From: Polyangiaceae bacterium
Lineage (GTDB): Bacteria > Myxococcota_A > Polyangia > Polyangiales > Polyangiaceae
Assembly: GCA_013214025.1 (NCBI GenBank)
Contig: JABSRN010000042.1
Coordinates: 1 to 64,000, forward strand
Length of the DNA stretch: 64,000 nt
Reading direction: 5' to 3'
The position numbers and the translations under genes are program-made. The number at the start of each line of letters is the position of its first letter. Positions within the stretch are counted from its first letter, which is position 1. Under the pieces are notes generated by a model that had not been told where the DNA came from, did no database searches, and worked only from the letters and a program-made list of their open reading frames with translations. Shown here one piece after another: positions 32,788 through 34,705 of this stretch.

Positions 32788-34132
32788 GGCTTCCACCAGA
32801 GCTAGCGGCGGGTCACTGCCGTCCCGCGCTCCGTGCCACAGCGGGGCAATCGCGGCACTCCTCGCAGTTGAATAGTCGATATACGTCGCCGATCTTCCCC
32901 GTTGATCTCGCCGATCGACTTGAAAGGCTCGGCTTTGACCCGGGCCTTTCGCTTATGTGACGCAGGCGAGATCGTGCGCTCCAACTCTCGGCTTGGCCCA
33001 GTAATCCGCGATCGCCACGATATCGAGCGGTAGCCCAGATCCCCGGATAGACGCGCTTTTAGACGATCGCCGACACGAGCTGTTGGTCGACGTAGCGAAG
33101 CGCGTTGTCGTAACGGTTTTTGGCTACCAGCGAGTTGCGATCATCATAGGAAAAATAGTTGTACTCACCCTGAAGCGGGCCGGTGGGTTGATAGGGCCGC
33201 TCGACTCCCGGGGGCACCTTGTACGGGAAATGCGTCGCCTGCAGATTGACATACAATCCCCAAGCGTCATCCCCCTGCTGGTCGATCCACTGCGTCGCCA
33301 GTGCCGCTGTATGAGCGTCAGGCACGACATATTCGGCGCCGGTGTCGACATGTTCCCCCTCGTAGTCCAGAGCATGAAAGTAGTGGGTCGGAGTGCCCGT
33401 TTGCTGGAAGCGCAGCATACCTTGCCAGGTTTCATCCTGGCTTGAAATCGTGGCGGTTCGATAGCCGATGGTGGACAACATGTCGTGCCACAGAAAGCGC
33501 GGGTAGCTCAGACCGGTGTACATATCTGTCCCCGTGCCACGGTACGGAAACAGAGAGGACAGCAAGGCCATCTGCGAGTAGTTCGAATGCGCCGCGGTGG
33601 TCCACACTCGCCGAAATCTTACGGACCGAGCGGCGATGCTGTCAAGCTCTGGGGTAGCCCCGGTGGTTCCGCCCTCGTATCCCAATCGGTCGCGGCGTAT
33701 CGACACCAAGGTGACCAACAGCACGTTCGGCATCTCGCTCGCCACAGCACCCATGCGCCACAATCGTTCGGCGACGAACTTCGGCCCCGCCTCGATCAAT
33801 TTCGTCTTCGGTTCCGGCCCCAGCCATACATCATCCGGCAGCATCGACGCCGCCATGGCGAGCTCCGGAGTGGTGGGCCACAGGTGACGCCAACCGTTCA
33901 CGAAAAACTCGACGCTGCCGCGATTCACATAGCTGCCCGCGCTCACTCGTAACCAGAGGCTCTCCCCATGGCATGCCAACAGCACACCCGCGGCCACGGA
34001 AGGCAAGGCGCTCGCCCGGCCGGTGCGCTCGGCGTTGCCTCGACTTCGGGCCGCGGGCAGCGCGGCGATGCCGAGCAGTAGGCCATAGACACTGGCGGTC
34101 ATCACCGAGCCCACCAGACTGTCACGGAGGCT

Positions 34133-34143
34133 GGGGGGGGGGG
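34133..34143. repeat. 11-base G/C homopolymer tract
   Basis: A run of 11 G on the plus strand, within the N-terminal coding region of the sulfatase-family gene. Losing one base would restore a single reading frame from the coupled ATG at 34256. Runs of this length are prone to slippage during replication and to sequencing error. Confidence 0.9.
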
Positions 34144-34221
34144 CTCAGAACACTCGCTCGAAACACCAGTTGATCGACGGAACTTGCGAGCGCTCCCAAC
34201 AACAGTCCCGCCCGAGCGTGA

Positions 34222-34253
34222 GCGCCCACCACAGCTGTGGCTGTGGTGGGCGC
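34222..34253 (-). promoter_or_regulatory. Perfect 14-bp hairpin right after a start codon
   Basis: GCGCCCACCACAGC and GCTGTGGTGGGCGC are exact reverse complements separated by TGTG. On the minus-strand transcript the hairpin begins at the base after the ATG at 34256-34254 and just after the thioesterase stop. It may end thioesterase transcription, although no U-tract follows, or it may limit translation of the downstream frame. It also encodes residues of that frame (APTTATAVVGA). Confidence 0.6.
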
Positions 34254-34255
34254 CA

Positions 34256-34705
34256 TCACGACGGAGACGCCGTCTCGGGACCCAACATGTGTTCGAGCAA
34301 CTCATCGGGGATACGGCACGGCCGGTGCTCCGCATTCACACACGCCAGCAGCGTGTGGCCTTCAACGAGCGTGGTGATGCCTTCAACGTCAGCCCGACAA
34401 ACCTCGTAATCGAAGCGAGTCGTCACGCGGGTCAGCTTGGCGATCCGAACCGTAATATTGAGATCGTCATTGAAGCGAGCGGGTTTCTTGAAGCGACTGG
34501 TCGCCTCAATCACCGGCATATGGAATCCCTTCGCATTGAGTTCCCGGTAGTTCAGCCCTCGCCGCATCAGGTACTCGATGCGGGCCGCCTCGACGTACTG
34601 GAGGTAGCGCGAGTGGTGCACAATCCCCATGGCGTCCGTCTCACAAAAACGCACACGTAACCTGAGCGTGGTGTGGCAAGGCTCAAGGTCGGCTTCGGAA
34701 GTCAC
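34256..34705 (-). CDS. Hot-dog acyl-CoA thioesterase, YbgC type
   Basis: A 149-residue 4HBT-fold protein. The family motif is clear: RFCETDAMGIVHHSRYLQYV, with the catalytic Asp in ETDAMG, then EAARIEYLMRRGL and FKKPARFNDDL. YbgC proteins hydrolyse acyl-CoA thioesters in the cytoplasm and are often linked to envelope genes. The stop TGA overlaps the ATG of the damaged sulfatase-family gene, showing that the two once formed an operon. The length is normal and nothing essential is missing. Confidence 0.92.
   Translation of the reverse strand: MTSEADLEPCHTTLRLRVRFCETDAMGIVHHSRYLQYVEAARIEYLMRRGLNYRELNAKGFHMPVIEATSRFKKPARFNDDLNITVRIAKLTRVTTRFDYEVCRADVEGITTLVEGHTLLACVNAEHRPCRIPDELLEHMLGPETASPS

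Follow-up and report, generated by a model that had tools for sequence, protein, structure and literature searches.

Organization of the locus

The window, i.e. the complete 64-kb stretch of DNA that was analysed, contains a gene for a 4HBT thioesterase (34256-34705, identified by its Pfam match). Downstream of it on the coding strand, two open reading frames on the minus strand make up the locus described here. The first has 44 codons (34122..34256) and encodes a first membrane helix; its ATG (34256-34254) shares one base with the stop codon of the thioesterase gene in the arrangement TGATG. This frame reads through a run of eleven C residues (34133..34143, minus strand) and stops at 34122. 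The second open reading frame, the body of the disrupted gene, comprises 351 codons (33059..34114, minus strand), lies in a different frame and matches the Pfam family Sulfatase (PF00884). The C11 tract falls between the first two membrane helices, in a variable loop. Read as G11 on the plus strand, it is the longest homopolymer of the window, followed by three runs of 8, and a first-order Markov estimate derived from the window predicts about 0.06 G or C runs of at least 11 per 64 kb.

A perfect 14-bp inverted repeat with a 4-base loop (34222-34253) is situated right after the ATG of the disrupted gene, just past the stop of the thioesterase gene. The surrounding 76 bases have a predicted fold of -48.7 kcal/mol (z -4.8). 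The inverted repeat occurs only once in the window and could represent the terminator-like end of the CrcB-thioesterase genes, and no T run is present behind it. Known RNA families were not detected at gathering scores between 32000 and 35500, nor was any tRNA found in the 64-kb window.

Orthologs and family assignment

The window protein was used to search 108 genomes of the same family, namely the window's own and 107 others. This yielded 24 strong matches, consisting of the window copy and 23 orthologs (L010-L032) with 44-56% identity over up to ~290 residues and E values of 4e-63 or better. Each ortholog resides in a stop-free open frame of 594-797 amino acids, some of them cut by contig ends. 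After a gap, a paralog with 35% identity (E 3e-29), encoded in the genome from which the window stems, came next, ahead of generic sulfatases. In a second search, genome contigs were screened with the window protein aligned to 22 of the 23 orthologs (the contig-cut L023 was omitted). It returned 22 loci, all of them duplicates of known orthologs, such that 22 of the 23 are also present under records L077-L098. The records are all metagenome-assembled genomes (MAGs) with names such as Polyangiaceae bacterium, Polyangia bacterium, Myxococcales bacterium and Deltaproteobacteria bacterium, from which we take the clade to be Polyangiaceae-like with 23 distinct orthologs. No second genome of the window's genus was found among the 108 family genomes, and the window protein alone did not reveal close relatives in the genome contigs. 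A conserved order with thioesterase, CrcB, trypsin or Omp85 neighbours was not found in the short flanks searched around the orthologs.

The body of the disrupted gene scored 64.1 bits against PF00884 (cut-off 25) and covered only profile positions 1-218 of 301, while three intact orthologs tested reached 147-150 bits against the same cut-off. The window copy and its orthologs share predicted N-terminal membrane helices and a set of invariant motifs (the THSNYAQ region, SQDExWQGM, HFPY and NRYDNA). Two intact orthologs were compared with NCBIfam models and stayed far under every cut-off, with weak matches to arylsulfatases, choline sulfatase, phosphoethanolamine transferases, YejM and LtaS. 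When L012 was compared with solved structures, arylsulfatases ranked on top and Mcr-1 and EptA-like transferases lower. The membrane-anchored alkaline-phosphatase-superfamily architecture predicted here is that of EptA/CptA, LtaS and YejM, to which the NCBIfam likeness is weak and far below cut-off. Judged by these profile matches, the lost enzyme is a membrane-anchored (sulfatase-like) member of the alkaline-phosphatase superfamily, and because the NCBIfam scores of the two tested orthologs are so far below the cut-offs the assignment is made to the superfamily level only.

Lesions in the window copy

The relation between the two open reading frames was assessed with a profile of the 23 orthologs. 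The downstream piece matched model positions 65-148 and then 217-492 (E 3e-129), and homology to the orthologs 3' of the C11 tract continues in the next frame relative to the 44-codon frame. The N-terminal piece matched model positions 26-55, corresponding to the first membrane helix, with a weak E value of 0.027. Although this match is weak when taken alone, it is backed by its place and order, and both pieces were assigned to one gene; by this profile evidence they are colinear parts of it in different frames. All 23 orthologs hold a single frame across the position of the tract. The first-pass annotation had described a sulfatase-family gene in which an 11-C run separates a coupled N-terminus from the rest of the protein, and this description is borne out by the overlap with the thioesterase gene, the PF00884 body, the colinear profile match over both frames and the unbroken orthologs. 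None of the 23 ortholog genes contains a G or C run of seven or more anywhere in its length, indicating that the tract does not represent a long-conserved switch.

A second lesion, which the first-pass annotation did not mention, is an in-frame deletion of about 71 residues between residues 77 and 78 of the body (33883..33884, minus strand; the exact point shifts by a few codons with the alignment). Compared with each of the 23 orthologs, 63-85 residues are missing here (median 71). By a plain hydropathy count, the lost part contains two membrane helices in 14 orthologs and one in the other 9.

The third lesion affects the active site. An acidic metal ligand follows the first strand, as Asp in classical sulfatases and as Glu in the transferase branch, and we take residue 137 of the body to occupy this superfamily position. 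The window copy contains the motif TLVSIRRDR and has a GTG codon for Val at residue 137 (33704..33706, minus strand), whereas all 23 orthologs have Glu, so that the acidic ligand is absent. It had been proposed that the metal-binding Asp is missing at TLVSIRRDR; the loss of the ligand holds, but the residue that was lost is Glu rather than Asp. The exchange is one of four breaks (E to V, T to A, R to Y and L to T) in the 46 columns that are invariant among the orthologs, whereas in a leave-one-out control each ortholog broke 0-2 of 46-48 such columns.

The fourth lesion is a truncation (junction 33059..33077, minus strand). Homology ends at 33077, after which the frame continues for only a few unrelated codons before its stop. 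In all 23 alignments the end falls at residue 345-347, i.e. at 33077 or one codon off, and the 22 complete orthologs (L023, cut by a contig end, was left out) continue for another 192-231 residues. The last third of the protein is therefore lost, with the domain cut at Pfam position 218 of 301. As had been pointed out, the frame ends before the DHGE motif; the DHG motif is carried by all 23 orthologs. Homology to the ortholog C-terminus was not found in any downstream frame of the window, and a search with a full-length ortholog revealed no orphan C-terminal fragment elsewhere in the assembly, which is given as 97% complete. The other matches to this query belong to open frames of 375-1049 amino acids on 11 other contigs. 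A homologue combining the same Val with the same C-terminus was also sought, and none of the 23 orthologs has Val or ends at this point. The missing metal ligand and the missing C-terminus are particular to the window copy, and the argument of the first-pass annotation that these two lesions favour decay is strengthened by the internal deletion.

A dispersed repeat at the truncation

The truncation abuts the remnant of a dispersed repeat (32861..33080, minus strand), the edge of which lies within a few bases of the end of homology at 33077. Beyond the break, the sequence matches four other contigs at 76-93% identity over 80-177 bases; the match to a fifth spans 39 bases. The segment 32900-33075 matches contigs C92 and C31 at 81-82%, with C28 (93% over 80 bases) and C127 (76%) matching within part of this segment. 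C28 also contains an exact copy of 32861-32901, and the 39 bases from 33080 downwards match a partial copy on C12 (97%). Four of 106 family genomes contained matches, the window's own and three with weak matches of 44-62 bases. The repeat is thus short and, apart from these three, specific to the genome.

The other copies are found at 2133-2366 of L049, 1-230 of L050, 1-183 of L051, 1152-1261 of L052 and 1406-1444 of L053. At several sites the repeat has a broken or partial gene as its neighbour, and two contig ends also carry it. The copy on C92 abuts a partial protein-kinase match (Pkinase positions 41-117 of 263, E 0.0017, below the Pfam cut-off), and the copy on C28 is adjoined by the start of a frame with TPR repeats. 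These arrangements hint, short of proof, that breaks in further genes are likewise marked by the repeat. On contig C127, transposase-like frames (L052, 1178-2614), one of them with HTH_21 and rve domains, adjoin a shortened repeat copy.

Age of the probable decay

The body contains 346 codons free of stops and frameshifts, and none of 2000 shuffles was stop-free. Its GC content by codon position (0.62/0.49/0.74) resembles that of the neighbouring genes, and no such pattern is apparent in the tail (32788-33076). Moreover, 42 of the 46 invariant columns are retained. Taken together, these features argue for selection until recently, and the decay looks recent, or else the body remained of some use for a time. 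With ~3.9% of random substitutions creating stops, the probability of a stop-free body falls to 0.05 at ~7% neutral divergence, a limit that drops to ~2% on the assumption of one indel for every ten substitutions. Even the nearest orthologs share only ~50% identity with the window copy; the excess of changes in invariant columns (4 of 46 versus at most 2 of 48) points towards relaxed selection.

Discussion

Very probably, this Polyangiaceae-group genome carries here an ordinary pseudogene of recent origin, derived from a gene for a membrane-anchored sulfatase-like enzyme. Set against 23 intact orthologs, which possess the metal-binding Glu and the DHG motif, the window copy carries four independent inactivating lesions, i.e. 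the frameshift, the internal loss, the Glu to Val exchange and the C-terminal loss. The C-terminus may have been removed by the arrival of the repeat or by a deletion at the repeat edge, and the C tract would have expanded freely after selection on the frame had gone; we infer these steps and their order. Pseudogenes associated with insertion sequences or repeats are a known general kind in bacteria. The window copy resembles them in its truncation a few bases from a dispersed repeat combined with point and frameshift lesions, and differs in that the repeat is short and no transposase of its own was detected.

Part of this picture may stem from errors in sequencing or assembly, in the form of a wrong tract length, a poly-G read artefact and/or a mis-join at the repeat. 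Several contigs of the assembly begin or end in G or C runs; on C101, C155, C92, C12, C16 and C148 these runs measure 13 to ~62 bases and are likely poly-G read artefacts. Because they look like such artefacts, the exact length of the C11 tract should not be trusted from the assembly alone, and the position of the repeat at the junction would allow a mis-join in a short-read assembly. However, a mistaken tract length explains neither the Glu-to-Val codon nor the internal deletion, and an orphan C-terminus is not found in the assembly. A tract-length error is possible, yet it would not rescue the gene. That some such error is involved strikes us as unlikely, albeit well worth bearing in mind, and this estimate refers to an error as part of the picture and not to an intact gene.

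Alternatively, the copy could have been retained as a shortened, membrane-anchored and non-catalytic pseudoenzyme, with translation of the downstream frame starting internally at the GTG at 34114 or at an ATG soon after. The stop-free 351-codon frame, its typical codon composition and the 42 retained invariant residues accord with this idea, and a product of some use from the body is possible. On the other hand, none of the 23 other family members has such a shape, the changes in invariant columns exceed those of every ortholog, and the fold is cut in the middle of the domain. We regard a retained pseudoenzyme as very unlikely.

It had also been suggested that slippage in the tract could switch the gene on and off. 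Phase variation of a functional sulfatase-like transferase would be in keeping with the length of the tract, its early position in the frame and the relation between the two frames. There is precedent in the same superfamily: lipid A transferases of Neisseria meningitidis and Neisseria gonorrhoeae are reported as phase variable in a review (PMC10525099), and pptA appears in the title of a work cited there. Such reports concern some of the Neisseria phosphoethanolamine and phosphocholine transferases. In contingency genes, the tract toggles an otherwise intact frame. Here, essential parts of the enzyme are absent in either state; even when in frame, the product would lack the Glu ligand, ~71 internal residues with one or two helices, and the C-terminal third with the DHG motif. 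Thus, the features of the tract that prompted the idea stand, but the switch itself does not. Given these predicted losses, the product cannot act as a metalloenzyme whichever state the tract is in, and slippage at C11 would have nothing to switch. Together with the lack of a comparable tract in all 23 orthologs, this makes phase variation of a functional enzyme slightly less probable still than a retained pseudoenzyme. Least likely of all is the combination of the two ideas, in which the cell would continue to produce a truncated, catalytically inactive membrane pseudoenzyme and slippage of the tract would add or remove its N-terminal membrane helix.

Runs of eleven G were also surveyed in the genome as a whole. 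There were 23 forward and 193 reverse placements of the pattern, counting overlaps and including many from long runs at contig ends. Among the ~100 placements listed, at least 12 distinct runs including that of the window are located well inside contigs; the Markov estimate from the window amounts to ~5.5 per genome. A genome-wide family of contingency tracts was considered and rejected, since inspection of the frames around these 12 internal and three contig-end runs revealed no consistent pattern of tract-toggled genes.

A literature search for sulfatase pseudogenes in Polyangiaceae returned no paper that combines these subjects. Under the pseudogene interpretation, the locus most likely does nothing and represents a decaying copy of a membrane-anchored enzyme. 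It also provides a caution, in that a homopolymer near the beginning of a gene can resemble a phase-variation switch until the remainder of the gene is compared with its orthologs. The gene is broken at the edge of a small, genome-specific repeat, and it is this repeat, rather than the C tract, that merits a further look.
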